A stretch of 21,879 nucleotides of DNA from a virus, in the IMG/VR virus record IMGVR_UViG_3300030329_005440, positions 1 to 21,879 of that record; one strand, 5' to 3'. The notes beneath the pieces were generated by a model, which did no database searches, had not been told where the DNA came from, and saw only the letters and a program-made list of their open reading frames with translations. This document shows positions 2,942 to 21,879 of this stretch, one piece after another. The position numbers and the translations under genes were made by a program. The first letter of the stretch is position 1; each line of letters opens with the position of its first letter.

Positions 2942-3336
2942 TGGCCTTCGAGCTTTTTTGCCTCGCATTGATTTTATACCACGAAGCCCGTGGCGAGCCA
3001 AGAGTCGGCCAACTGGCGGTTGCTGAAGTTGTTCTAAACCGCGTTCAAGATGATCGCTACCCAGATAGCATTTGCGAAGTGATGGAGCAGAAACACGCCG
3101 GTGTATGTCATTTTTCCTTCTGGTGCGATGACATCTCCGACACACCTCAAGATGAGGATCTTTTCAAACAAATGCGTGAAGTTGCCTGGTCAATGTTCTA
3201 CAGCTTCCCGGACATAAAGCTTGTTGAGGGTGCGACTCACTACCATCATGTTGACGTTTCGCCACGATGGGCCTGGACACTCACCCCGGTTGCTCGCATT
3301 GACAACCACATTTTCTATCGATGGGATCAACCATGA
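2941..3336 (+). CDS. SleB-family cell wall hydrolase (endolysin candidate)
   Basis: The product is 131 residues. LALILYHEARGEPRVGQLAVAEVVLNRV (residues 8-35) is the hallmark block of the SleB/CwlJ hydrolase_2 family, with the presumed catalytic glutamate in YHEARGE (Glu15; Glu19 is also conserved). The following YPDSICEVM and HFSFWCDD blocks also fit. These enzymes cleave peptidoglycan; in phages of this kind the protein serves as an endolysin. The length is essentially the catalytic domain alone. No secretion signal or anchor is evident, and no holin or spanin is recognisable nearby, so release would need a holin outside this window. The start overlaps the previous stop (TAATG), and the end overlaps the methyltransferase start (ATGA). 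Confidence 0.88.
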   Translation: MAFELFCLALILYHEARGEPRVGQLAVAEVVLNRVQDDRYPDSICEVMEQKHAGVCHFSFWCDDISDTPQDEDLFKQMREVAWSMFYSFPDIKLVEGATHYHHVDVSPRWAWTLTPVARIDNHIFYRWDQP

Positions 3337-4223
3337 AAGTTATCGATCTATTCAGTGGCATTGGTGGATTTTCGCTAGGGTTGGAAGCTGTTGGTTTCCA
3401 AACAGTCCAGTTTGTGGAACAAGACCCTTTTTGCCAAAAGGTTTTGAAACATCACTGGTCGCACGTTCCGATTCATTCTGATATAAGGACTTTCGATGGC
3501 AAAAGACACAAAGACATTGGACTTATTTGCGGCGGCTTCCCCTGCCAAGGATTTTCGGTCGCAGGAAAGCAACGAGGAGTCGAAGATGACCGTTATCTCT
3601 GGCCGGAAATGTTGCGGACAATCTGCGATGTTGAACCGCGGTACGTCCTTGGCGAGAACGTTCCTGGAATCGTCAATTTGGCACTCGACCAGGTGTACGC
3701 TGATCTGGAAAAGTCATATGAGGTCACAGTATTCAATTTACCAGCTCTTGCCGCAGATGCACTCCACCGCAGAGAAAGAATCTTCATCATTGGGGTCAGA
3801 AAAGATTTGGCCTACGCCTCGTGCAGCCGAACCCGGAAGGACAAGCGAAGGTTTTGGTCGGGGTCTGAAAGAATTGGTGGAGGGAAAAAAACAATTGAAA
3901 AAACTTTGGCCGACTCTGACAGTGTCCGATTCCAACGGAGCACCAAAAAATCGGTTTTGGGGAAGCCCGACTTACAGAGGAAACTTGGACGAGGCGGTTC
4001 GGACAAAAGAATCGGACGGACAAATGAGTTACCAGTGGGTCACTTGGTTGATGGGATTTCCAGAGGGTTGGCTCGATTTGAATGGCCGGAAGAAAAGTTA
4101 CCGAGACTTGCCACTAATGAAAAAAATCGAGGACAAAAATTGAAGGGGCTGGGGAACGCTGTTGTTCCACCTCTAATTGCAAAAATCGGAAGTCTAATTA
4201 TGAACCATAATCAAAATGGCTGA
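3333..4223 (+). CDS. DNA (cytosine-5) methyltransferase
   Basis: The product is 296 residues. ATG 3333 is preferred to the in-frame ATG 3321 because it forms an ATGA overlap with the previous stop and gives the canonical start MKVIDLFSGIGGFSLGLE. Motifs run in order: motif I LFSGIGG (S-adenosylmethionine binding), motif IV GGFPCQGFSVAG with the catalytic Cys71, motif VI ENV (108-110), motif VIII RRERIFIIG, and motif X GLGNAVVPPLIAKIG (around 273-287). All catalytic blocks are present, so an active C5 methylase is likely. The target recognition region (about 155-265) is short, so specificity cannot be read. From nt 3496 to 4143 the same DNA is also open in the +1 frame with recognisable motifs (see the overlapping gene). 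A probable role is protection from host restriction; no cognate endonuclease is seen. Confidence 0.93.
   Translation: MKVIDLFSGIGGFSLGLEAVGFQTVQFVEQDPFCQKVLKHHWSHVPIHSDIRTFDGKRHKDIGLICGGFPCQGFSVAGKQRGVEDDRYLWPEMLRTICDVEPRYVLGENVPGIVNLALDQVYADLEKSYEVTVFNLPALAADALHRRERIFIIGVRKDLAYASCSRTRKDKRRFWSGSERIGGGKKTIEKTLADSDSVRFQRSTKKSVLGKPDLQRKLGRGGSDKRIGRTNELPVGHLVDGISRGLARFEWPEEKLPRLATNEKNRGQKLKGLGNAVVPPLIAKIGSLIMNHNQNG
3485..3489 (+). promoter_or_regulatory. Shine-Dalgarno of the overprinted gene
   Basis: AAGGA is followed by a 6-nt spacer and ATG 3496. It lies inside the methyltransferase coding sequence, where it has no other evident role, and it supports independent translation of the +1 frame. 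Confidence 0.6.
3496..4143 (+). CDS. Overprinted gene in the +1 frame of the methyltransferase (methylase-tail-like family)
   Basis: The frame is open for 215 codons, entirely inside the methyltransferase gene, with an AAGGA ribosome binding site 6 nt before the ATG. The protein begins with TLDLFAAASPAKDFRSQES, has CGQSAMLNRGTSLARTFLESS and WHSTRCTLIWK, then two WPT blocks (IWPTPRA at 104-110 and LWPTLTVSD at 137-145), and ends with WVTWLMGFPEGW (181-192). I recall these as the hallmark motifs of a phage and bacterial family, usually annotated as DNA methylase or hypothetical, with repeated LWPTPTASD and a terminal NPEWVEWLMGFPIGW. A chance frame should not carry them. The methylase frame reads the same DNA as LAYAS, LADSDS and LVDGISRG, also familiar from methylase C-termini. 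Function unknown; a translated product is inferred. Confidence 0.6.
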   Translation: MAKDTKTLDLFAAASPAKDFRSQESNEESKMTVISGRKCCGQSAMLNRGTSLARTFLESSIWHSTRCTLIWKSHMRSQYSIYQLLPQMHSTAEKESSSLGSEKIWPTPRAAEPGRTSEGFGRGLKELVEGKKQLKKLWPTLTVSDSNGAPKNRFWGSPTYRGNLDEAVRTKESDGQMSYQWVTWLMGFPEGWLDLNGRKKSYRDLPLMKKIEDKN

Positions 4224-9596: not shown

Positions 9597-9598
9597 AT

Positions 9599-9712
9599 AT
9601 GCCAGGAAAAGGACCGTACGGTCACAATTCTCCAGTAAAAAAAGGGCGCAGCCGACCTAAATTTTGTTTAAGTTTGCATATGATAATGATAAGTTTCCGC
9701 CAAATTATTTGA
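9599..9712 (+). CDS. Short phage protein, probably truncated at its 3' end
   Basis: An excellent ribosome binding site (AAGGAGG, 9587-9593) sits 5 nt before ATG 9599. The first 21 residues, MPGKGPYGHNSPVKKGRSRP then K, look like the very short basic proteins found between scaffold and capsid genes of podoviruses. After that the frame reads FCLSLHMIMISFRQII and stops, in DNA that has abruptly become AT-rich. The natural end has therefore probably been replaced or frameshifted: one extra T in the run at 9662-9665 would join this frame to the following broken gene. The start is well supported; the C-terminal third is doubtful. Confidence 0.5.
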   Translation: MPGKGPYGHNSPVKKGRSRPKFCLSLHMIMISFRQII

Positions 9713-9973
9713 TACATAAAACAAAATACTCAGAAAACCTCAACTCTGTAGAATCTGCCATCTATAAAATTGATGATCTCATTTCTAAAAGTGCAAGATA
9801 TAGAGGATATGAAAAAAAACTGTATAGAGTTACTAAAGGTTCATTCAAAGATCCACCCGGACTTTTTTCATGAAGCACCTAGATTTGGCATAATTCAAAT
9901 GCAGAGAGGAGGGCAAAAACAACATCCAACGCAATTGCAATTTAATCTAGAAGCAGGTTATTTCTACAAATAA
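9661..9973 (+). pseudogene. Frame-broken gene in the AT-rich island, unknown function
   Basis: The first part is open in one frame from 9661 to 9873 (FKFAYDNDKFPPNYLIHKTK, later IDDLISKSARYRGYEKK) but has no ATG; a TTG at 9664 is the only start-like codon. The second part is open in another frame to a TAA at 9971-9973 (KNCIELLKVHSKIHPDFF, HEAPRFGIIQMQRGGQKQ, FNLEAGYFYK). Removing one A from the A8 run at 9812-9819 joins them into a smooth sequence of about 100 residues (RGYEKNCIELLKVH). No family is recognised. Base composition (about 32% GC by hand count) differs from the flanking genes. It may be a decayed accessory gene, a gene using slippage on the A run, or an artefact of homopolymer miscalling. 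Confidence 0.5.
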
Positions 9974-9992
9974 AAAAAGGAAGATACAAAGA

Positions 9993-10028
9993 AAAAAGCC
10001 CAGCTAATTGGAGTTAACTGAGCTTTTT
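9993..10028 (+). terminator. Intrinsic terminator after the broken gene
   Basis: AAAAAGC-C-CAG (9993-10003) pairs with CTG-A-GCTTTTT (10018-10028), 10 pairs with one mismatch, loop of 14 nt, ending in a T5 run. The leading A tract makes it potentially bidirectional. It would end transcripts from the terminase-scaffold operon. Confidence 0.6.
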
Positions 10029-10318
10029 GTTGAAACAAATTTTAGTACGTTTCGATTGAGTAAATTTAGCGTAGCACGAAGGCATACAAATGTCTACCTT
10101 TTTTTTCAGCTAAAAGGTTATGCGAAAAAGAAAAAGTAAAGGATTAAGTCATCATATTGTGGTTGTCTAAACGCTAAATACTACATCTAGCTTTACAACA
10201 GCCTTTTTTTTTGATAACTTTGCCATAATCGATAACCTTTTGGGCCGGTTAAACCAATAGGCCGGCATTGCCGATAACCTGAAAAAAACTTTTTTTTAAT
10301 TTTTTTAGGAGACTAAAA
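10029..10318 (+). promoter_or_regulatory. Non-coding, AT-rich leader of the capsid gene
   Basis: No convincing gene is seen in these 290 nt on either strand. From the 5' side they hold a palindrome TTTGTT-GA-AACAAA (10026-10039), the hairpin with T9 (10162-10212), three copies of GATAAC (10213, 10231 and 10273), and GCCGG/CCGGC arms (10244-10248 and 10262-10266). Oligo-A/T tracts and the capsid ribosome binding site AGGAG (10307-10311) follow. A promoter for the capsid genes is expected here, but no clear sigma-70 -35/-10 pair with correct spacing was found; a phage-specific promoter is possible. Confidence 0.4.
10162..10212 (+). terminator. Second terminator-like hairpin before the capsid gene
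   Basis: GTTGT (10162-10166), AAA (10169-10171) and GCT (10173-10175) pair with AGC, TTT and ACAAC (10189-10199) with small bulges, followed within a few bases by a T9 run (10204-10212). It could be a second terminator or a processing site. The bulged stem makes it weaker than the first. Confidence 0.4.
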
Positions 10319-12129: not shown

Positions 12130-14144
12130 CGCGCCTGGCTCAGATTCAAACCAATTTTACGAGCGGCGAGCTTGATCCGCTGGTTAGGGGCCGAGTCGAT
12201 TTGCAACAATATTACAACGGGATGGAAACACTGACCAACGTGGTGGTTCAACCGCAAGGCGGCGTGAGTCGGCGCGAAGGTCTCAAGTACGTCTTCACCA
12301 TTCCAAGCTCACAAAATCCGCAAGATGGGCTACGAATTGTGCCCTTTGAGTTTTCTGAAACACAAACCTACATTTTAATTTTTGTGCATCAACGTATGTA
12401 CGTCTTCCAAAACCAACAACAGATCACAAACATTAATGGATCGGGCAACGCCTATTTGGCAACAGGATTGACGTCAGCAACATTGGCTGACAAGTTTGGC
12501 TTTACACAGAGCCACGATACCTTGGTGGTTTTTACGGTTGCCGGTATGCAGACCTTCGTGCGCGGCGCTACCAACTCGACCTGGACCGTTGACAGCTCTC
12601 CGGTTGCGGCTGCGAATCGACCGTATGTCCGCAGTGGCACAGCAGCCACTGATGGCAACACGACTGCGACTCCGAGTGCGACCAGCGGCAATATCACGAT
12701 TACGGCCGGCGCATCCTTTTTTTCAGCCGACCATGAAAACCAGCAATTTGAAAGCACCGATGGTTTTGGAACAGCGCGGATTACAAAATACGTTTCTGCC
12801 ACGGTAGTTGAAGCGGTCACGCAAACCAGTTTCTTTGACACCAGCGCCATGGCCTCTGGGACTTGGCGGGTTAACACGGGTTTCGATGAAAGACTTGAAA
12901 ACGCTAGTGGTGGGTGTTCGTGTGGAACTTTTCACGAAGGGCGTCTGTTTGTCGGTGGCAATAGCACAAATCCCAACATGATTTTTGGCTCGAAAGTAGG
13001 TGATTTTTTTAATTTTAGGCAAACCGATGGTCTGGATGACGATGCCATTCAAGCCGAAATATCAACCGACCAAGTGAATGAAATTACGTCAATTCGATCG
13101 GGTCGAGATCTTCAAATTTTTACAACCGGCGCAGAATATTATGTGCCGCAGCCTGACACATCGCCGCTTACGCCATCAAATTTTGTTGTTAAACAAGCGA
13201 CCAGGCAGGGATCCAAAACAGATATAAATCCGGTGGGATCTGAAACAGGAACGTATTTTGTGGCGCGCGGTGGTAAAGGCATCCGAGAGCTTACGTATTC
13301 AGATCAAGAAACGACTTACGCCGTAGCTAACATTAGTCTTTTGTGCAGTCACTTAGTGAGCACTCCAACCCGAATGGCCTATAAAGTTTCGCGCTCAAGC
13401 ACCGAGGGCGATCGACTCTTTCTCATCAACTCTGATGGAAGCATGGCAAACTTTACACTGCTAAGAAGTCAAAATGTGGTTGCTGCAAGTAAATTTACTA
13501 CGAGTGGCGAATTTGTCGACATTGCCGTGGATAACGACGATGTTTATGTGATTACAAAAAGAACCATTAACTCTGCAACTGTTTATTACCTGGAAGTTTT
13601 TGATGAAAATCGAACAACAGACGCAGCAATACAATATTTTTCGGGGGCTGTTGCACCGGATCAAGCCATCCCAACCGATGGCGATGGAACCACGCACAGC
13701 GGTTTGTCGCATCTTGAAGGCGCAACAGTTGACGTGATTCGCGATGACAATGTTTTAGCGCAAAAAACAGTGAGCAGCAGCGCCATCACAACCGATGTTG
13801 GCCCAACAACCTATACGGAAGTCGGATTGCCCTACACCGTTACAATGAAGACGATGCCGTTCGAACCACGGCTCTCAAGCGGTAACGTTCAAGCGCAGCG
13901 TCGTCGCATTGTTGAAGCGACTCCGATCATGTATAACACTCAGAATTTAACGATCAACTCCAAAGACGTCCCGTTCCGATCCTTTCCCTTGACCCTTGGG
14001 GCGGGCGTCACCAATTTTACTGGGACAAAAAAGGTAGGACCAATTCTCGGTTTTTCGCGGGCTCCTGCCTTAACGATCGGACAAAGCGCCCCTTTGTTTT
14101 TTACTCTACTAGCGCTCGAATATAAAGTGAGTTTAGGCCAATGA
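12126..14144 (+). CDS. Tail tubular protein B (T7 gp12-like nozzle)
   Basis: The product is 672 residues (T7 gp12 is 794). The start FTSGELDPLVRGRVDLQQYYNGMETLTNVVVQPQGGVSRREGLKYV is the family hallmark. The middle includes FHEGRLFVGGNSTNPNMIFGSKVGDFFNF and TDQVNEITSIRSGRDLQIFTTGAEYYV, which belong to the beta-propeller part. The final part (MPFEPRLSSGNVQAQRRRIVEA) leads to a beta-rich tip. Six copies form the tail nozzle below the adaptor, to which fibres attach. The gene lies between ATGA overlaps on both sides, with the upstream adaptor and the downstream internal protein, indicating coupled translation. Confidence 0.92.
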   Translation: MTRLAQIQTNFTSGELDPLVRGRVDLQQYYNGMETLTNVVVQPQGGVSRREGLKYVFTIPSSQNPQDGLRIVPFEFSETQTYILIFVHQRMYVFQNQQQITNINGSGNAYLATGLTSATLADKFGFTQSHDTLVVFTVAGMQTFVRGATNSTWTVDSSPVAAANRPYVRSGTAATDGNTTATPSATSGNITITAGASFFSADHENQQFESTDGFGTARITKYVSATVVEAVTQTSFFDTSAMASGTWRVNTGFDERLENASGGCSCGTFHEGRLFVGGNSTNPNMIFGSKVGDFFNFRQTDGLDDDAIQAEISTDQVNEITSIRSGRDLQIFTTGAEYYVPQPDTSPLTPSNFVVKQATRQGSKTDINPVGSETGTYFVARGGKGIRELTYSDQETTYAVANISLLCSHLVSTPTRMAYKVSRSSTEGDRLFLINSDGSMANFTLLRSQNVVAASKFTTSGEFVDIAVDNDDVYVITKRTINSATVYYLEVFDENRTTDAAIQYFSGAVAPDQAIPTDGDGTTHSGLSHLEGATVDVIRDDNVLAQKTVSSSAITTDVGPTTYTEVGLPYTVTMKTMPFEPRLSSGNVQAQRRRIVEATPIMYNTQNLTINSKDVPFRSFPLTLGAGVTNFTGTKKVGPILGFSRAPALTIGQSAPLFFTLLALEYKVSLGQ

Positions 14145-14641
14145 AACAAGCAGCAATGTTTGCACTCAGTGTTGCCAGCAGTGTCGTTGGTGCGTACGGC
14201 GCACATCTATCCGGTAAAGCGGCTGAACGCGCAGCATCCCGGCAAGCTGCGGAAGAAGAAGCTCGGGCTCGCATCGAAGCCTTGGAAGCTCGAGAAAAAG
14301 GCGTTGAAGAGCTGCGCAAAATTAACGCGGTGCTGGCAGCGAATGTTGCTCGTGGCGCGGCTGGGAACCTCAATCCTTTTAGTCCTACAAGCTCAATTGC
14401 GATGATTAACAATTTAAGTTTAGACAGCGCGGTCTCTAGTTACTACTCAAGTCTAGATAACGCCATCATTGCGCATTCGCTTGGTAAATCTAAAGCTGAA
14501 AGGTTGCGATACGCCGGCAAAATGAAGAAACGCGCGGGCAATCTCATGGCAGCTCAAACTCTCTTGCAAGGTGGCTCAGACATTGCGGCTTCCGGGTACG
14601 ACCCATTTGCAAGCGACACTAAATCGGAGAAGATCTTCTAA
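14141..14641 (+). CDS. Internal virion protein (T7 gp14-like)
   Basis: The product is 166 residues (T7 gp14 is 196). It begins with a small-residue hydrophobic segment (MFALSVASSVVGAYGAHLSG, residues 6-25) able to insert into a membrane, followed by a long charged coiled helix (ERAASRQAAEEEARARIEALEAREKG). It then has AANVARGAAGNLNPFSPTSSIAM, a typical motif of this family, and YYSSLDNAIIAHSLGKSKAERL. Gp14-type proteins are carried in the head and, on infection, form the outer-membrane pore of the ejection apparatus. Position after the nozzle gene and before the larger internal proteins supports this. It overlaps both neighbours. Confidence 0.82.
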   Translation: MKQAAMFALSVASSVVGAYGAHLSGKAAERAASRQAAEEEARARIEALEAREKGVEELRKINAVLAANVARGAAGNLNPFSPTSSIAMINNLSLDSAVSSYYSSLDNAIIAHSLGKSKAERLRYAGKMKKRAGNLMAAQTLLQGGSDIAASGYDPFASDTKSEKIF

Positions 14642-16572
14642 TGGCAGAGCTTATTCAGTACCGATCAACGCCGCAATCAATCAACCTCCGGTCAGGCACA
14701 AATGTGGACCTGACGGCTGAATCGGATGCGTATGGCGCACTGTATTCGGCCGCCGAGTCGATGCGCCAGTTTGCTAACAAGCGCCTGGCGGTTTATGCGG
14801 AGAAAGAAGGTATCGAATACGGGGTCGAAAACGTGCCTACATTGGCTCAATTGCGTGATATTTTTAGCGACCAAGAGCGCGTCGAAAACCAAGTTGTTCT
14901 TGACAATATTGATGGCAAAGCAACCAATGACGATGTTATTCAAGCTAATCGTCAGCGAATTGAACCAAAAAATATTTTAGAGAATCTTCCGCAGGGAATG
15001 AATGTCTACGATGTTGCGGCGCGATCTGCTGCCGGTGAAGCTCTGGCCGATTCGCTTAAAGTTATCGCCGCTGAAAAGTTTGATGCTATCCAACTTCAAG
15101 CTTTAAGTTTGGAGAGCTCGCCGCAAGAAGTGAAAGATCAACTACAAGCAACCATTGTGGGATTAAGTGAAGCCTTTGAAGGGTTAGGAGATCCTGCGGC
15201 GCTGCGAAAGTGGCGCGCCAGTGTGTCTCTTGCCGCAAACACGACTTATTCAGCATACGCACAAAACTACATTACGGTTGGTCGTCAAAAAAGAGAAGTT
15301 GATTTTCAGCGATCAATTCAGGCATTCAAAAGCCAGACAAAAAATTTGTTGGCGAATAAAGACATTAATGAACCGGTTTTTCGGAGCAATGGCCGCATCG
15401 TCAACATTCCAGAAGATCTTTCTGGAACCGATCGTCAAGCATTTATACAGGAAAACAAACTGGAAGTTTCAAATTTAAATGCTATTGATTTTTTGATCGC
15501 CGAGCGCGATAACATTTTGGCAAAAGCTTCTGGCATTTATCGCGATGAATCAAAGTTAAAATCGATCGCCAAAGATCTCAACGACAATATTAAAACCAAT
15601 ATAGCCGAATACTTTACCGACATTGTGTACTCCGAAGAGGAAATGCGGGTTGTTGCTGAAAACATTTTAACAGGATCCTTTGAAGGTTTAGCGCCGTATG
15701 ATATGGAGTTAGTGGAAACAGCTCGGTCTTACGGTTACACCGATGTTGAAGAGATCATTGCTGAAAATTTTATTAAAAGACTCGACGCGCTTGATAAGTT
15801 TGATGAGGATCGCCGAAAAAAAGAAAAGTTTGACGTTGATGATGCTAAAAGTGATTTAACAAATGATATTCAAATTGCGATGGGCAATCCAGACCCGGAT
15901 GCGCGATCGCGAATGATTGAGTCATCAATCGCGGTGTTTCGAAACAAAGCGCCAGGTGAGCCGATTCCCGCCGAACTTAATAAACTGATTACGACCGAGC
16001 AAGGGGCTTATGCCGCCGTTGACAACTCCGAGGTGGTCAACACTCTAAACGCCGCTCTCAGATTTAACGAGATGCCGCTTATTAGCATGAAGGAATTAAT
16101 TACCTATCAAAACGATTTAACTGAAAAAACGTTTAACGATTATCTTAAACTTTATACGGCCTTTCAAAACAAACAAATATCCCAGGTTGATTCTCTTGTT
16201 CGTGCTACTTTAAAAATGGCCCCACCAACTTTTCTCAGTTTAGTGCCTGATGGCACGCGAGCGCAAAACTACAATATTCGTGGCGAGGTTTTGAAGCAAG
16301 CTCAAGAAGCCTTGTTTGAGGCAAAAGTAAATCAAGAATCGTTTAACGGTTTTCTGTGGTTTCAAGATAACTTTGAGCGCATACGCAGCGAGTTTTCTGC
16401 TACCACAGTTCAGCCAAAAGAAGAACCAAAGTCAGTTGATCAGTTGCAACAAAGAAAAAACTTTCTACTTAAAAAAGACCAGTTAACTGAGCCTGACAGA
16501 GAAGAGTTAGCACAAATTAACGAACAGTTAAAAGAGTTTGCCGACAGAAAAAAAGAGACAAAAGATGAGTGA
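14641..16572 (+). CDS. Internal virion protein (T7 gp15-like position)
   Basis: The product is 643 residues (T7 gp15 is 747). It is almost entirely helical and charged, with no transmembrane segment or enzyme motif. The N-terminal part has the usual small-virion-protein start (IQYRSTPQSINLRSGTNVDL; AAESMRQFANKRLAVYAEKEG), where residues around 30-60 form a helix with the motif (A/F)-A-x-R-L-x2-YAE-K-EG found in podovirus ejection proteins. The long remainder is of the sort that builds the periplasmic tube. The C-terminus (from about 600) is a charged coiled coil. The call rests on position, size and composition rather than on strong sequence signature. Overlaps of TAATG upstream and 8 nt downstream show coupling. 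Confidence 0.72.
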   Translation: MAELIQYRSTPQSINLRSGTNVDLTAESDAYGALYSAAESMRQFANKRLAVYAEKEGIEYGVENVPTLAQLRDIFSDQERVENQVVLDNIDGKATNDDVIQANRQRIEPKNILENLPQGMNVYDVAARSAAGEALADSLKVIAAEKFDAIQLQALSLESSPQEVKDQLQATIVGLSEAFEGLGDPAALRKWRASVSLAANTTYSAYAQNYITVGRQKREVDFQRSIQAFKSQTKNLLANKDINEPVFRSNGRIVNIPEDLSGTDRQAFIQENKLEVSNLNAIDFLIAERDNILAKASGIYRDESKLKSIAKDLNDNIKTNIAEYFTDIVYSEEEMRVVAENILTGSFEGLAPYDMELVETARSYGYTDVEEIIAENFIKRLDALDKFDEDRRKKEKFDVDDAKSDLTNDIQIAMGNPDPDARSRMIESSIAVFRNKAPGEPIPAELNKLITTEQGAYAAVDNSEVVNTLNAALRFNEMPLISMKELITYQNDLTEKTFNDYLKLYTAFQNKQISQVDSLVRATLKMAPPTFLSLVPDGTRAQNYNIRGEVLKQAQEALFEAKVNQESFNGFLWFQDNFERIRSEFSATTVQPKEEPKSVDQLQQRKNFLLKKDQLTEPDREELAQINEQLKEFADRKKETKDE

Positions 16573-19174
16573 TGAGTTTGAAAACGAATTTATCGATCAC
16601 GAGTTAAAACGCGGATCACAACGATTTGCCTACACTGACCCAGCGACGGGAGAAAAGAAAATAGGCTACGGCGAAGTGCCCCTGCCTCACGGCGAATACC
16701 CGGCGGATATGGACCTGGAAAATGAAGAAGCCATGGCTCAGTATGATCTTGAGCGTTTCAAAATTCGAGGCGTTAACGTGTTGAAATATTCGCCCGAGGA
16801 TTTTGAGGATATTCGGTCCCAGGACGAAGGGTCGCAGTTGACAGATCCCGCCTGGATTGCGAGCTCCAAAATTCTGTACAGAACAACACAGGACAAAGCA
16901 TTTGAAGGAGAAGATAAAGACGTCGCACAATGGGGTCTTGATTTTATGGATCGGTTTGAAGCAAATCTGCCGGCCATGCTAGTGAACACAAATACGGTTT
17001 TGCAAGCTCCAACGCCGGTGCAAAGCGCCATGTATTATTTGATGGAAACGTATGATCGCAAAGGTTTAGATTTGCGTTCAACTCTTCGTCAAGTAGCCTG
17101 GAGCCTGGCCGATCCATCAAATTTGTTTGGTCTAGGAACACTGGGTGTTGGGTTTGTGGCTAAGGGTGGCGCAAAGAAGTTGTCAAAAGCTGGGTTTAAA
17201 ACGCTGCTGAAAGAAAGTATTTTGAGTAAACCAAACCTCGCGACCATTTTGACAGGAGTTGACGCGGCTGCTGTCACGGCAGCGTATGACGCCGCGCAAC
17301 AAAACATTGAAATCGGCGCTGGCGTTCGTGAAGAATTTGACCCAACACAAACAGCCATTGCCGGTGGCGTCGGAGCCGTGGTGGGTGATCGTCTTGCTGC
17401 TGGTTCTCCAGCAATTGTAGAGGGTGCTCGACGAGCAGGAACAGGTGTGGCTGAAGCAGTTACTGAAAAAGCTGGACAAGTTTATGAAGGCGTCGAAAAC
17501 TTAACCAACCTCAATGTCGTGCCACCAAAACGCGTAGGCACAACTGGCCAATATGTTGGCGCACCGCCAGGATTAGACAGCCCACAAAAACTAGCAGCGC
17601 TTAGAAACAATATGATGAAGATTGCTAAAGCTGGTGAAGAGGGACGGTTTTGGTATGAGCGCTCGGGCCGTGCATTATTAGATTTGTTAGATGGCGATGT
17701 AAAAGAAACTGATAAGCTTGCACAAGCTATTGCCATAACAAGTTCTGGATCAACTCCTGTGCTAACAAACTTTCAGTTTGCTATTCAAGCATATTACCAA
17801 CACAGAGCTGGCAAAGAAATTCGCACAGGAAAGTTTCCTACAGCCCAAAGCGATCGTTTAAAAAAATTGTTTGACGGCGAGGACTGGCCAGGGAGAAAAA
17901 CAAATACTTTCTATAACAATATAATGGCAGTAGTAGATCCGAGCAGAGCACAAGGCGTGACTGTGGATATGCATATGATGAGAGTTTTTGGTTTTGAGAA
18001 TGACGCGCCTAGCCCAAAACAATATGATTTTATTGAAAAAGAAGTTACCCGCATTGGTGACAAACTAGGCTGGACGCCTTACCAAGTGCAAGCTGCGATG
18101 TGGGTAAAGCAAAAAGCAGATCGAGCTGGCAAGCCTGTATCCGAAATGAAATTTGATTATTCTGATGCTTTGAAAAAGAATCTAGGTCAAATTTCCTCAG
18201 AAACAAAGCCATCAAAAAGTAGCGGCCATTTCCCAGAATTATTTGACGCGCCGATGCAAGAGCAAGCTGATTTTCATTTGAGAATGTCAAAAGCGTTAAC
18301 AAACGACGACGGTAAGGATTTAATAGCTAAAGAAGTCGGTTTGCTTTCACCCGGTAGTTTTGATGCTCCAGGAATATACAAAGGAGTTTTAAGCCCCGGA
18401 ACCCAAACATATGCATTAATGCCGCCGCAATATAAAGGCGAGCCTGGTGAAGTGGAACAGGGTGCGATAGATCTTGTGAAGATATATGCTGTAGCAAAAG
18501 GAATATTGTTAAAACAAGATAGCGTAGGAGCGCATAGAGTTTTTGTAAAAAAAGGTTATGCAAAAGATAGGGATGCTGTCGCTGTTGATATTGGAAGACG
18601 CTTTACTGATGAAGAAATGGTGAAATTAGATCTGTTATTAACCGAAGAGTTTAAATCAAATGATTTCTCACCAGCGTCTACAGAATTAGGTGTGAATATT
18701 GTTCATTGGATGGGTGAACGTGGCAAGATGGATTTTACAGATTTCCAAGACAAAGTTAGAAAAGTTTTAAAAAAGATGGAGATGTCTGATATAATTACAC
18801 CTAGTGGCAAGTTAGAAGCTGGTACAGCAGCTTCTCAAAAGGTGTATGTCACTAATGAAGTATATAATGAAAAAGGCGACGTAATAAGTAGTTGGAAAGA
18901 GGAACCTAATGGCAGAAATTATTTGGAAGGAGCTTTCCCCGGACGACCGGATCTTCAAGCAAGGGTGGATAGTATCGTCACCAAACTTGCAGACAGGGTC
19001 GATGCAGTCGAAGACGAAATCGTCAGAGATTACGGGTGGACAAAGCTCGACTACAACAGCAAGTACCGAGGCCAGCAAGAAGAAGCAGCCGAGCAAATAG
19101 CACCCTCCCCTGACACTGATCCTTCAGTGTTAGGCGAACGTCCTCCACAACCACCGGCGATGGAGGACCCATGA
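16565..19174 (+). CDS. Mosaic ejection-position protein with a DUF7178-like central module
   Basis: The product is 869 residues from ATG 16565 (overlap of 8 nt). Residues 1-320 look like phage ejection proteins: acidic start, then STLRQVAWSLADPSNLFGLG, followed by small-residue hydrophobic stretches (TLGVGFVAKGG; IAGGVGAVVGDRLAAG). From about 336 to 523 there is a different domain: EGRFWYERSGRALLDLL, AIAITSSGSTPVLTNFQFA, KTNTFYNNIM, GVTVDMHMMRVFGF, LGWTPYQVQAAMW. This matches my memory of an uncharacterised phage domain (DUF7178-like) with conserved W, S/P and V-T-x-D-x-H. A second module follows (IDLVKIYAVAKG, VAVDIGRRFTDEEMVKL). Arginine codon use changes at these boundaries (AGA/AGG 11 of 20 in the module, 1 of 15 before it), so it appears to be an acquired segment. 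C-terminus disordered, Pro-rich. Confidence 0.65.
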   Translation: MSDEFENEFIDHELKRGSQRFAYTDPATGEKKIGYGEVPLPHGEYPADMDLENEEAMAQYDLERFKIRGVNVLKYSPEDFEDIRSQDEGSQLTDPAWIASSKILYRTTQDKAFEGEDKDVAQWGLDFMDRFEANLPAMLVNTNTVLQAPTPVQSAMYYLMETYDRKGLDLRSTLRQVAWSLADPSNLFGLGTLGVGFVAKGGAKKLSKAGFKTLLKESILSKPNLATILTGVDAAAVTAAYDAAQQNIEIGAGVREEFDPTQTAIAGGVGAVVGDRLAAGSPAIVEGARRAGTGVAEAVTEKAGQVYEGVENLTNLNVVPPKRVGTTGQYVGAPPGLDSPQKLAALRNNMMKIAKAGEEGRFWYERSGRALLDLLDGDVKETDKLAQAIAITSSGSTPVLTNFQFAIQAYYQHRAGKEIRTGKFPTAQSDRLKKLFDGEDWPGRKTNTFYNNIMAVVDPSRAQGVTVDMHMMRVFGFENDAPSPKQYDFIEKEVTRIGDKLGWTPYQVQAAMWVKQKADRAGKPVSEMKFDYSDALKKNLGQISSETKPSKSSGHFPELFDAPMQEQADFHLRMSKALTNDDGKDLIAKEVGLLSPGSFDAPGIYKGVLSPGTQTYALMPPQYKGEPGEVEQGAIDLVKIYAVAKGILLKQDSVGAHRVFVKKGYAKDRDAVAVDIGRRFTDEEMVKLDLLLTEEFKSNDFSPASTELGVNIVHWMGERGKMDFTDFQDKVRKVLKKMEMSDIITPSGKLEAGTAASQKVYVTNEVYNEKGDVISSWKEEPNGRNYLEGAFPGRPDLQARVDSIVTKLADRVDAVEDEIVRDYGWTKLDYNSKYRGQQEEAAEQIAPSPDTDPSVLGERPPQPPAMEDP

Positions 19175-19296
19175 GCACACCTGATCAAACCAATTGGACT
19201 GATGAGCAAAAAGCTCGCTACGCGCTCGTTCAAGAAAAAAGCAAAGCGCGTCAAACTCCCAAAAAACCCGTTAGTTATCCCCGGAGGCCCAAATAA
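19171..19296 (+). CDS. Small basic protein of 41 residues, unknown function
   Basis: ATG 19171 overlaps the previous stop (ATGA) with GGAGG at 19162-19166. The frame closes with TAA at 19294-19296, whose last base is the A of the next ATG (TAATG). The product, starting MSTPDQTNWTDEQKARYALV and ending PVSYPRRPK, is basic and probably helical in its first half. Perfect fit between two virion genes with a good ribosome binding site supports a real gene. No family is recognised. It could be a small virion or assembly component. Confidence 0.65.
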   Translation: MSTPDQTNWTDEQKARYALVQEKSKARQTPKKPVSYPRRPK

Positions 19297-21879
19297 TGGT
19301 GACTACTGTTTCGCGTAAAATGGCAACAAAATTGTCGCGCCAAATATCTGGTGCGGTCGATGTGCTCTCGGGAAATTCCAAAGAGCGGATTCGAACGCGT
19401 GAGGAGCTCGACAAACTTGTAGATCAAGAGATCCCGGACGAAAAGTTAGTTCCGGTAGGCCCGAGTGAGCCGTTTGAACAGCCGCCGGGACAGACGCAAA
19501 TGGAAACCACTGTTGTAAAAAATCCACAGAATCCTGATACTTCTGTTGCAAAAAAACAACAGCCAATTATTGAGCCTGTTAGCAAAGTTGCTGACGACGG
19601 CACGATCGAAACTCGAGAGGTGAGCCCGGAAGAGGTTGCTGACATAAAAGCAGGGTTGAAAGCTACAGATTTAGACACTACCGGAGTTCGACCAAATTTG
19701 AACAAAATTAATTCAGAAGATGATTTAAAAAAACTTATCGCTCTGATGTTTGATAAGTTTAAAAACGACGCTGGTCCAGGGGGTAAAAAAATCTTACGCA
19801 AAGGTCAGCGAGGTTTCCAACAAGTTATTGAAGATGCAAATCGGTTGGACAGTCACACGCTTATGTTAATGCTCCTTAATAGGGCTCCCGGCGACAGACC
19901 GTTCACCGACGCCGAACTGCTTGGAGCTCGAAACATGGTAGCCTCGATGGAGCAAGTCACACTGGATCTTCTAAACAAAGCTAGTGATTCGGGTGATGTG
20001 GTTGATGAACTAAACGCGGCACAAAGTATTAGTCTCACGGGATATGCGCTGACACAATTGGTGGGCGTGCAGGAAGATCTTGGCCGTGGTTTGGTTATGA
20101 ACAAAATTATGGCGGGACCGAGCAAAGCTCGAATGGATAAAATGAGTCAGCTTATGGCCGGTCGTGATGGCGCCGCGTTTCAAGTGACTGGAACAGATCA
20201 AGGCGGTGCGGTTATAACAAAAGCAAACGCAGAACAATTTTTACAAAATTATGGCGGTCGCGACAAACTTAAATTATTTCTCGAGCTCTACCGACAGTTA
20301 CCGACCGATAAACGCGGAACGTTTGCCAAGCGTAGCCTCGCAAGAAAAACCGGCGATAGCCTGGTCGAGATTTATCAAAGCTCTTTAATTTCAAATCCGA
20401 TAACCTTTATGTACAACTTGGTTGGAAATTCGATTATGACGACGATCCTGCCCATTGAAAGATTTTTTGAAGGCCGCCCTCGGGAGGCATTGTCAATGGT
20501 ATCCGCGGTTGCCAGGTATATGCCGCAAGCTTTGCGAGCTGGTTGGAGTGCTTTGAAGACCGAGCAAGCCTCCGATGCTACCACTAAATTTGATTCAAAC
20601 AATGTTCGCGCAATAAGCGCTGATGCCTGGGAAATGGATTCTGAAAGTGCGGCGGCGAAATTTTTAAACGGCTTTGGAATTTTTATGCGGATGCAGGGGT
20701 TCCGGCCTATGGTGGCCACTGATGAATTTTTTAAAGCGCTATTGAGAGGCATGGAGTTAGAAAGTCTAGCGACACGCTCTCAGTACGATACCTATCGCTT
20801 GGCCATGAAAAACGGAGCAAGCAAAGATGATGCTGCAACCATGGCAAACGAAAGCTGGTTATCGACGATTTACTCCGAGGAAAGTTTTACCCAAGCCAAT
20901 GAATTTGCGCGTATGGGAACCTTCCAAAATGACTTACCGGATCTTTTTAAAAAAATCACACCGATCGTAAACCACCCGATCTCGAAAATTTGGATACCGT
21001 TTTACAAAACGCCGACTAACATCGCGATTCGCGTTTATGAGCGTTCCCCCTTTGGGATCGTTAGTCCGACCGTTAACGCCCTACGAGCGTTACATCAAAA
21101 AGTGACCAAAGGCCAGGCTGACGCCGAAACGGTCGCGAAGATGCGGGCGCAGATGTCGAAGGTTATGGTCGGGACCGGGGTTGGTGCAACCATTATGAGT
21201 TTGGCCAGCGGACAGTACGGTGAAGATATTATTATGACGGGCTATGGGCCGACCGATGCGAAGCAGCGAGGTCAATGGTTGCAACGGCATAAACCTTATT
21301 CTTTTGGTGTTAAAAAAGAAGATGGCAGTTATGAATACATCAGTTACGAGCGCTATGATCCCCTGTCCGGGTTGTTAGCGCTCGCGGCCGATTCCAGGGA
21401 TACCCTGATCAATAATGACAACTCGGAGTTTGCCGATTCAATTGTTTTAAATCTTGGTCTATCAACCTTGAGATACATTGGATCTGCATTGCCGATGATG
21501 GATTTTGTCGGCGAGCTGATCGATTTGAATGGATCGCCCTACATTTCAGCAGAAGATCGAATCAATCGCGTGCGCGAGCTTGTTGCAAAACAGGCAACCG
21601 GAGCTGCCCTTGTTGTTGGACAACACGTTGCGACGGGCGGGCAGTATGGTCAAACTATGAGTGCGTTTACCGAAAGATATTTGTCCGACGGTGGAGAGTT
21701 TGCTTCCAACACCCGAGCGCCAAATCAATACGGCTATGTTTTAGATCTTGGATTTCAGCCCGAAATTCGCGGATCTTATGAGGCATTGCAAAAAATACGA
21801 AGTCGGATTCCCGTGTTTTCGAAGGGCGTTCCTCAACTACACAACGACTGGTTCGAGCCGGTGAAACAACTCACCGGCG
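19296..21879 (+). CDS. Large phage protein with LPD38-like region, 3' end outside window
   Basis: The frame is open for 861 codons from ATG 19296 (GGAGG at 19283-19287, 8 nt upstream) to the window edge; I translated it fully and found no stop. Residues 1-130 are charged and Pro-rich, a flexible linker. Residues about 130-340 are helical (QRGFQQVIEDANRL; SISLTGYALTQLVGVQEDLG). From about 352 the protein resembles the LPD38 type region of large polyvalent phage proteins: DSLVEIYQSSLISNPITFMY, NLVGNS, then long helices, FYKTPTNIAIRVYERSP, a hydrophobic segment (MVGTGVGATIMSLASGQYG), RYDPLSGLLALAAD, SNTRAPNQYGYV. It occupies the place of T7 gp16, so it is probably an inner-membrane-acting ejection protein. 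No lytic transglycosylase motif is visible in the part present. Confidence 0.75.
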   Translation, partial: MVTTVSRKMATKLSRQISGAVDVLSGNSKERIRTREELDKLVDQEIPDEKLVPVGPSEPFEQPPGQTQMETTVVKNPQNPDTSVAKKQQPIIEPVSKVADDGTIETREVSPEEVADIKAGLKATDLDTTGVRPNLNKINSEDDLKKLIALMFDKFKNDAGPGGKKILRKGQRGFQQVIEDANRLDSHTLMLMLLNRAPGDRPFTDAELLGARNMVASMEQVTLDLLNKASDSGDVVDELNAAQSISLTGYALTQLVGVQEDLGRGLVMNKIMAGPSKARMDKMSQLMAGRDGAAFQVTGTDQGGAVITKANAEQFLQNYGGRDKLKLFLELYRQLPTDKRGTFAKRSLARKTGDSLVEIYQSSLISNPITFMYNLVGNSIMTTILPIERFFEGRPREALSMVSAVARYMPQALRAGWSALKTEQASDATTKFDSNNVRAISADAWEMDSESAAAKFLNGFGIFMRMQGFRPMVATDEFFKALLRGMELESLATRSQYDTYRLAMKNGASKDDAATMANESWLSTIYSEESFTQANEFARMGTFQNDLPDLFKKITPIVNHPISKIWIPFYKTPTNIAIRVYERSPFGIVSPTVNALRALHQKVTKGQADAETVAKMRAQMSKVMVGTGVGATIMSLASGQYGEDIIMTGYGPTDAKQRGQWLQRHKPYSFGVKKEDGSYEYISYERYDPLSGLLALAADSRDTLINNDNSEFADSIVLNLGLSTLRYIGSALPMMDFVGELIDLNGSPYISAEDRINRVRELVAKQATGAALVVGQHVATGGQYGQTMSAFTERYLSDGGEFASNTRAPNQYGYVLDLGFQPEIRGSYEALQKIRSRIPVFSKGVPQLHNDWFEPVKQLTG

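Follow-up and report, generated by a model that had tools for sequence, protein, structure and literature searches.

The gp16-type ejection proteins of T7-like phages and the giant polyvalent proteins are among the closest described systems for the locus reported here. The C-terminal part of gp16 is described as cytoplasmic and DNA-binding (PMC8954989), and its N-terminal lytic transglycosylase is phage-specific, being absent in P22 and not universal (PMC8954989). Polyvalent proteins of phages (Iyer et al. 2017, PMC5512222) carrying ART-PolyVal or LPD38 domains represent a class predicted to be injected, and the main text of that paper makes no mention of glycosylases. Here, a virus record of 21,879 bases (IMGVR_UViG_3300030329_005440, hereafter referred to as the window), which holds the late region of a marine-type podovirus, was analysed with respect to an 869-residue gp16-like protein, gp16A, encoded at 16565-19174 on the plus strand. 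Its C-terminal cassette of about 530 residues is, on balance, probably a virion-carried, co-injected DNA glycosylase/lyase-like enzyme mounted on one half of a split gp16-type ejection protein.

Base excision has been described both as a weapon and as a repair tool. Brig1 (PMC11078745) and Brig3 (PMC13160076) are anti-phage glycosylases of the uracil-DNA-glycosylase superfamily encoded by host genes, restriction glycosylases (PMC10273834) employ DNA base excision in phage-host conflict, and gp35 of Streptomyces phage Sf3 (PMC5336643) is a stand-alone phage gene of the helix-hairpin-helix (HhH) HhH-GPD type; as far as the available parts of these reports extend, they present none of these proteins as part of the virion or as ejected. 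Neither HhH-GPD enzymes nor gp16 mosaicism nor polyvalent proteins are new in themselves. A search of the open-access literature returned no paper that treats the Pfam family DUF7178 or that connects DNA glycosylases to ejection proteins, and both the link between DUF7178 and HhH-GPD and the gp16A cargo slot described below appear unreported there.

The split ejection protein and its cassette

The gp16A gene was delineated from the lists of open reading frames (ORFs) and the gene order; it begins with ATG, and an alternative in-frame TTG start upstream, at 16538, is possible. Its N-terminal part (residues 1-320; 16565-17524, +) is homologous to gp47 ('internal virion D') of phage LUZ100, with 37% identity over residues 97-261 in TBLASTN (E 2e-9) and an E-value of 8.7e-40 for a profile of the N-terminal part. 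The next gene, gp16B (19296-21878, +), is 35-39% identical to the gene following gp16A in four related loci (L001, L006, L059 and L061; L-numbers denote the related loci compared in this analysis) and 25-27% identical to the 'internal virion protein (D)' of Pelagibacter and Methylophilales phages. A gp16B profile reaches residues 791-915 of LUZ100 gp47 (E 3.1e-6), a weaker homology than the N-terminal one. Since LUZ100 gp16 is a single chain of 1,210 residues holding both the N-terminal and the gp16B homology, the cassette is placed by sequence at the junction at which the one-chain protein is split into gp16A and gp16B. The gp16 proteins of HTVC025P and Gjalp are likewise single chains (1,234-1,246 residues) that match the gp16B profile; the gp16 of the cultured Pelagibacter phage HTVC028P is also split (gp34/gp33) and carries a different cargo. 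In the loci examined, the gene next to gp16A is gp16B, typically of about 930-1,170 residues. Both homology to a gp16-position internal virion protein and a position behind gp14- and gp15-like genes were thus found, and the window gene, judged by these features, encodes the first of the two halves into which a T7-gp16-type ejection protein has been split. It shares the gp14-gp15-gp16 order with the T7-type proteins, but differs from them in being divided into two genes, the first ending in a cargo cassette. Pfam scans of residues 1-335 gave no family, and a lytic transglycosylase domain of the T7 gp16 N-terminal type was not detected.

The cassette comprises residues 321 to about 852 (17525 to approximately 19120, +) and was delimited by its recurrence as a unit in varied ORFs and by a table of identities. 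A search with the whole protein retrieved nine viral contigs, six of which (L001-L004, L006 and L007) show the full architecture. In L005 and L009 only residues of about 310-840 are common to the window protein (75-76% identity), the N-terminus being unrelated, and in L008 the cassette is embedded in a protein of 2,658 residues with LPD38. An alignment search with the cassette extended the set to 52 loci with different neighbours and ORFs of about 750 to 3,500 residues; among the giant carriers, LPD38 occurs in L008, L027 and L054 and ART-PolyVal in L051. The same cassette is therefore found in polyvalent proteins of 1.6-3.5 thousand residues, several of them with LPD38 or ART-PolyVal. The window protein, by contrast, is compact, an ejection protein with one recognised enzyme-like domain.

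The identities of the cassette and of its flanks are incongruent. Cassettes 54-78% identical to that of the window (maxima of 78% for each of its two domains) have flanks that are 24-59% identical or unrelated: 30-36% or unrelated for the N-terminus, at most 28% or unmatched for gp15, 24-39% for gp16B, 28-47% for the nozzle and 25-59% for the major capsid protein. In five loci (L001, L003, L004, L005 and L009), domain 1 is 75-78% and domain 2 70-78% identical to the window, against 30-33% or no relationship for the N-terminus, 24-38% for gp16B, at most 28% or no match for gp15 and 25-58% for the capsid protein. Because cassette identity far exceeds flank identity, movement of the cassette between distant phages is the only simple reading, and its horizontal acquisition and mobility are well supported by these comparisons. 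The original prediction of a foreign domain acquired by the ejection-position protein is borne out by this incongruence and by the existence of relatives with and without the insert.

That prediction had been argued in part from codon bias, the weakest of its arguments. Its counts of AGA/AGG among arginines (1 of 15 before and 11 of 20 within the insert) are close to our recount of 1/14 in codons 1-320 and 10/20 in codons 322-783 (11/21 in codons 321-790; Fisher p = 0.0097 for 1/14 versus 11/21), and the insert is AT-richer as proposed, GC content at third codon positions (GC3) falling from 0.425 before the cassette to 0.331 within it. A segment scan delimited a GC3-poor stretch at codons 250-790 (z 5.11; maximum of 60 shuffles 4.29). 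However, the nozzle gene shows a like GC3 contrast (z 4.36; shuffle maximum 3.95), so composition alone is only moderate evidence for acquisition; as the nearest architectural relatives (L001, L003, L006 and L007) are also uniform across the cassette junction, codon use was set aside as proof and the identity incongruence, by which acquisition is better demonstrated, was used instead. Of the borders proposed earlier (17530-18905), the left one stands (17525-17530) and the right one moves to about 19120, because homology to all the cassettes extends to 'YNSxYR', the second module reaching residue 851 or so.

A separate observation concerns the 2,658-residue polyvalent-type protein of L008 (L008:4845-12821), in which a [KR]QAR motif occurs five times (residues 639, 738, 1286, 1467 and 1683; 0.08 expected from shuffles) at apparent module junctions, once directly before the cassette; it may represent a processing or linker signal.

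The DUF7178 domain and its partner domain

Domain 1 (residues 339-531; 17579-18157, +) had been proposed to resemble DUF7178, and a Pfam search matched residues 358-515 to that family (PF23802; E 1.1e-10), the score of 42.2 bits lying above the curated cut-off of 27. The same model matches all 36 aligned cassettes, and gp16A also matches phrog_3842 (E 1.3e-7). The window domain is thus a direct member of a family to which Pfam assigns no function, the cassette form adding domain 2. An AlphaFold model built from 36 sequences (pLDDT 89.5, pTM 0.88) was compared with solved structures using VIA-align. The top matches were MjOgg (3knt, Z 11.0), TmOgg (3n0u, 10.7), SsOgg (3fhg, 10.6) and MjOgg (3fhf, 10.5), then AGOG (8.2), all five being 8-oxoguanine glycosylases of the OGG2/AGOG type; MutY (7.1) and hOGG1 (6.9) ranked lower.

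Since the Foldseek matches were not significant and Z values of this size can arise by chance between helical domains, evidence was sought at the sequence level. With a profile of Ogg-HhH proteins taken from genomes of the phylum to which the L074-bearing Halomonas genome belongs, HHalign gave an E-value of 4.9e-5 for domain 1, and with wider membership 3.8e-7 (probability 92.9, score 54), compared with a maximum score of 24.9 in 200 column shuffles and 11.5 for the reversed profile. In this alignment Lys445 (codon 17897-17899), within the putative helix-hairpin-helix motif W-P-G-R-K445-T-N-T-F-Y-N-N (17885-17920, +), corresponds to the hairpin lysine of GPK-QAS/GYK-TAS in Ogg-HhH; the motif is also positioned like GRKTAN in endonuclease III of E. 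coli. Asp468 (codon 17966-17968), within G-V-T-V-D468-M-H-M-M-R-V (17954-17986, +), corresponds to the aspartate of (V/L)-D-x-H, as in AVLDRH/AILDIH of Ogg-HhH. Both residues, which align with the catalytic Lys and Asp known from bifunctional glycosylase/AP-lyases, are invariant in the 36 cassettes, with H or W two positions past the aspartate. They are also retained in stand-alone DUF7178 proteins of Streptomyces, Salinibacter and Roseobacter phages, where DRH is found and where an SPQT-like loop, a G-x-K hairpin and the D-R-H motif are arranged in the order of HhH-GPD enzymes. One of these genes, gp81 of BartholomewSD, is located seven genes away from one for an OCR-like antirestriction protein. 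The V-T-x-D-x-H stretch, around which an enzymatic or helix-hairpin-helix fold had been anticipated, falls at the catalytic aspartate of the predicted HhH-GPD fold.

With fold, profile and active site in agreement, DUF7178 very probably adopts an HhH-GPD DNA glycosylase fold, and the profile ties domain 1 to the HhH-GPD/OGG2 superfamily as a remote relative. It shares with the OGG2 8-oxoguanine glycosylase/lyases (3knt, 3n0u and 3fhg; Ogg-HhH PF22175) the predicted fold (Z 10.5-11.0 over 164-173 residues) and the G-x-K lysine and D-x-H aspartate in register, but differs from them in an identity of about 10%, in not being called by PF22175 or PF00730, in the frequent replacement of the histidine after the aspartate by tryptophan and in its fusion to domain 2 and a virion protein. 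Endonuclease III was considered as the closest relative and rejected, as HHalign against the single E. coli Nth sequence gave nothing and OGG2 fits instead. Sequence searches of solved structures with the cassette, the short form of the domain and domain 2 found no relative, and PADLOC and NCBIfam scans gave no useful match; aGPT-Pplase3 and HMUDK_hel did not match, a result rendered uninformative by a control that likewise gave none.

The second module that had been noted behind the DUF7178-like domain is present as domain 2 (residues 533-851; 18161-19117, +), a predicted alpha/beta, ferredoxin-like domain (AlphaFold pLDDT 89.3, pTM 0.88). The two domains occur in one ORF in 77 of 80 loci, the exceptions being two truncations at contig ends and one case of overlapping frames, and domain 2 is, by this distribution, an almost obligate partner of domain 1. 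The overlapping ORFs, in L201, suggest a frameshift or sequencing error. Invariant residues of domain 2 include E14, D53, Q119, H125, R146, E152, N232, W245 and Y254 (domain numbering). Structural comparison gave no confident relative, only common ferredoxin-like arrangements, to which the matches to RND porters and PII-like proteins (Z of at most 8.4) also appear to belong. A phage SAM lyase was considered (Foldseek E 0.039; VIA-align Z 6.9-7.2, ranked below the RND porters) but is not supported by sequence, the HHalign score against the T3 SAM lyase lying within the range of shuffles.

The gp16A/gp16B junction and the neighbouring late genes

A search with the N-terminus alone retrieved relatives without the cassette, namely L059 (342 residues), L060 and L061 (341 residues each), as well as L067 and L068, in which the same N-terminus is followed by a shorter, divergent DUF7178 domain (PF23802 E 1.1e-4 in L068). 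L059, ending before the cassette, and L068 (648 residues, short DUF7178) have near-identical flanking DNA and differ in frame by about 0.9 kb; the pair is, by this comparison, a natural empty and occupied site at the DNA level. Neither a uniform architecture among relatives nor alignment throughout with ordinary gp16 proteins was therefore found, LUZ100 gp47 lacking the cassette and gp16A proteins of 341-342 residues being present. Cargo unrelated to the cassette follows the shared N-terminus in L093/L095, L096-L098/L120, L108 and L111; the N-terminal family includes at least five other cargo groups in addition to the empty form. Of 61 non-redundant genes situated before gp16B, 21 proved in a conservative search to encode a DUF7178-type domain; an earlier profile, whose domain borders were allowed to grow, had strayed into the N-terminus, giving a score even to the empty L102, and was replaced by this stricter run. 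As judged from these loci, the gp16A/gp16B junction is a cargo slot that is empty in some close relatives and occupied by different domains in others.

For the remaining slot cargo no Pfam family could be assigned with confidence. That of L108 and L112 holds a K..SF......VLVLDRIQGRHLW-like sequence after the shared N-terminus and may, by its sequence, be a further divergent HhH-GPD-type domain lacking a Pfam call. An E-[IM]-Q-S-D motif, again without a Pfam call, was observed in the cargo of L096-L098, L120 and HTVC028P gp34 (L255:1724-4588); it is presumably the motif also present in some large polyvalent proteins. The contig IMGVR_UViG_3300030118_000584 carries a full cassette at one end (L004) and a short DUF7178 domain at the other (L067), the starts of the gp16B genes being 90% identical, and may represent two population variants joined by assembly, or population variation.

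The late genes of the window include those for the terminase, portal/head-tail adaptor, scaffold (T7 capsid assembly, PF05396), major capsid protein, a gp11-like protein, the nozzle and gp14-, gp15- and gp16-like proteins, the closest capsid among named phages being that of Methylophilales phage MEP301 (61%). The order nozzle, gp14-like, gp15-like, gp16A and gp16B is the same in the relatives and LUZ100, and the record ends inside gp16B. The gp14-like internal virion protein (14141-14641, +) matches phrog_418 ('internal virion protein', E 8.8e-4) and is 36-41% identical to those of L001, L059 and L068, and the gp15-like ejection protein (14641-16572, +) was assigned by position and by 24-28% identity to the gp15-position gene of relatives. 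An ORF of 41 codons (19171-19298) between gp16A and gp16B overlaps both (ATGA and TAATG, respectively), which suggests translational coupling in this region. A C5-cytosine DNA methyltransferase gene (3321-4223, +; PF00145 E 1e-44) lies directly before the terminase genes and was not found in the examined DNA of any of the related loci. About 720 bases of low GC content (0.33-0.39) preceding the capsid gene (9597-10318) contain T runs and inverted repeats without a long ORF; searches of the window, this stretch included, gave no Rfam family and no tRNA.

Proposed role and alternative explanations

The fold and mobility of the cassette are well supported, and we infer its enzyme activity, its packaging in virions, its target (own, host or rival DNA), its delivery at infection and any anti-defence role. 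By analogy with other gp16 proteins (PMC8954989) and with the polyvalent-protein concept (PMC5512222), gp16A would be packed in the capsid together with gp14, gp15 and gp16B and ejected ahead of the DNA, and the cassette would reach the cytoplasm. Domain 1 would then flip out one kind of base, whether damaged, deaminated or modified, excise it by Lys445/Asp468 chemistry and perhaps nick the abasic site, with domain 2 setting the substrate or DNA context, and the protein would most likely act on DNA during the first minutes after infection. Repair of lesions in the entering genome and an attack on host, prophage or rival DNA containing a particular base appear about equally likely. That close relatives lack the DUF7178 domain speaks for an accessory benefit under certain conditions and not for a core ejection step.

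Several points weigh against this proposal. Foldseek gave domain 1 no match with an E-value below 0.001, a Z of 11 for an all-helical domain is, according to the VIA tool note, within reach of unrelated helical bundles, direct Pfam scans of the window call neither HhH-GPD nor Ogg-HhH (PF22175 gives nothing there), and no HhH family appears when DUF7178 proteins are scanned with Pfam. The likeness to OGG2 could accordingly be a chance one between helical domains, DUF7178 being a nuclease, an effector, a structural domain or something else; this we regard as improbable, given that the five top structural matches all belong to one enzyme family, that the profile-profile score, with K and D in register, is double the highest value from 200 shuffles and that the motifs of the stand-alone members follow the HhH-GPD order. 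Pfam and NCBIfam also assign domain 2 no function, the cassette may not reach the cytoplasm and instead be situated in the periplasm or the membrane region, and the glycosylase role and virion location are drawn here from sequence and a predicted model.

A domain of HhH-GPD fold might also serve the ejection machine without any chemistry, as a non-specific DNA-holding part that pulls or anchors the entering DNA in the manner of the DNA-binding C-terminal part of T7 gp16. HhH domains do bind DNA backbones, and the domain recurs in about a third of the gp16A proteins of this phage group (the 21 of 61 above); yet the loci without it (L059, L060 and L061) keep the rest of the machine, so that ejection does not depend on it, mere DNA binding requires neither the lysine nor the aspartate that are invariant in 36 divergent cassettes, and the domain is also found in stand-alone genes away from virion genes, all of which makes such a role rather unlikely. 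A further reading places the enzyme in the producing cell, for example in genome maturation or base modification, the fusion to gp16A serving only co-expression or local concentration. The cassette is indeed encoded among late genes, and HhH-fold enzymes of the aGPT-Pplase families are predicted in base hypermodification. Fusion to an ejection protein at its cargo slot, and elsewhere to polyvalent proteins predicted to be injected, points instead to delivery, and no hypermodification genes were seen in the window, a C5-cytosine methylase being all that lies nearby; we consider there to be little chance of this role. That nothing was acquired, the codon difference being local drift in an old, vertically inherited gene, would agree with the contrast inside the nozzle gene and the uniform codon use of the architectural relatives, but is already contradicted by a cassette identity of 75-78% with phages that match the window at 24-59%, or not at all, in capsid, nozzle, gp15 and gp16B, and by the empty and occupied relatives, and is scarcely credible.

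Delivery of a glycosylase/lyase-like enzyme by gp16A thus remains the preferred explanation. A wider and distinctly more tentative proposal is that the junction in this large group of marine podoviruses is a general dock which loads the ejection machine with interchangeable enzymes, mostly of a new glycosylase/lyase family (DUF7178 with domain 2), injected before phage gene expression and either removing a specific base from the DNA of the host, a prophage or a rival or overcoming a defence. The natural empty, short-domain and full-cassette variants among close relatives provide ready comparisons, and DUF7178, an uncharacterised phage family, gains a concrete, testable chemistry and candidate active-site residues. 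If many marine podoviruses have such a slot in their ejection protein, compact ejection proteins would be connected to the giant polyvalent proteins of other phages. The findings suggest that a DNA-acting enzyme is injected along with the genome of such viruses, and a base-excising enzyme delivered in this manner would, if confirmed, be an unusual activity of early infection.

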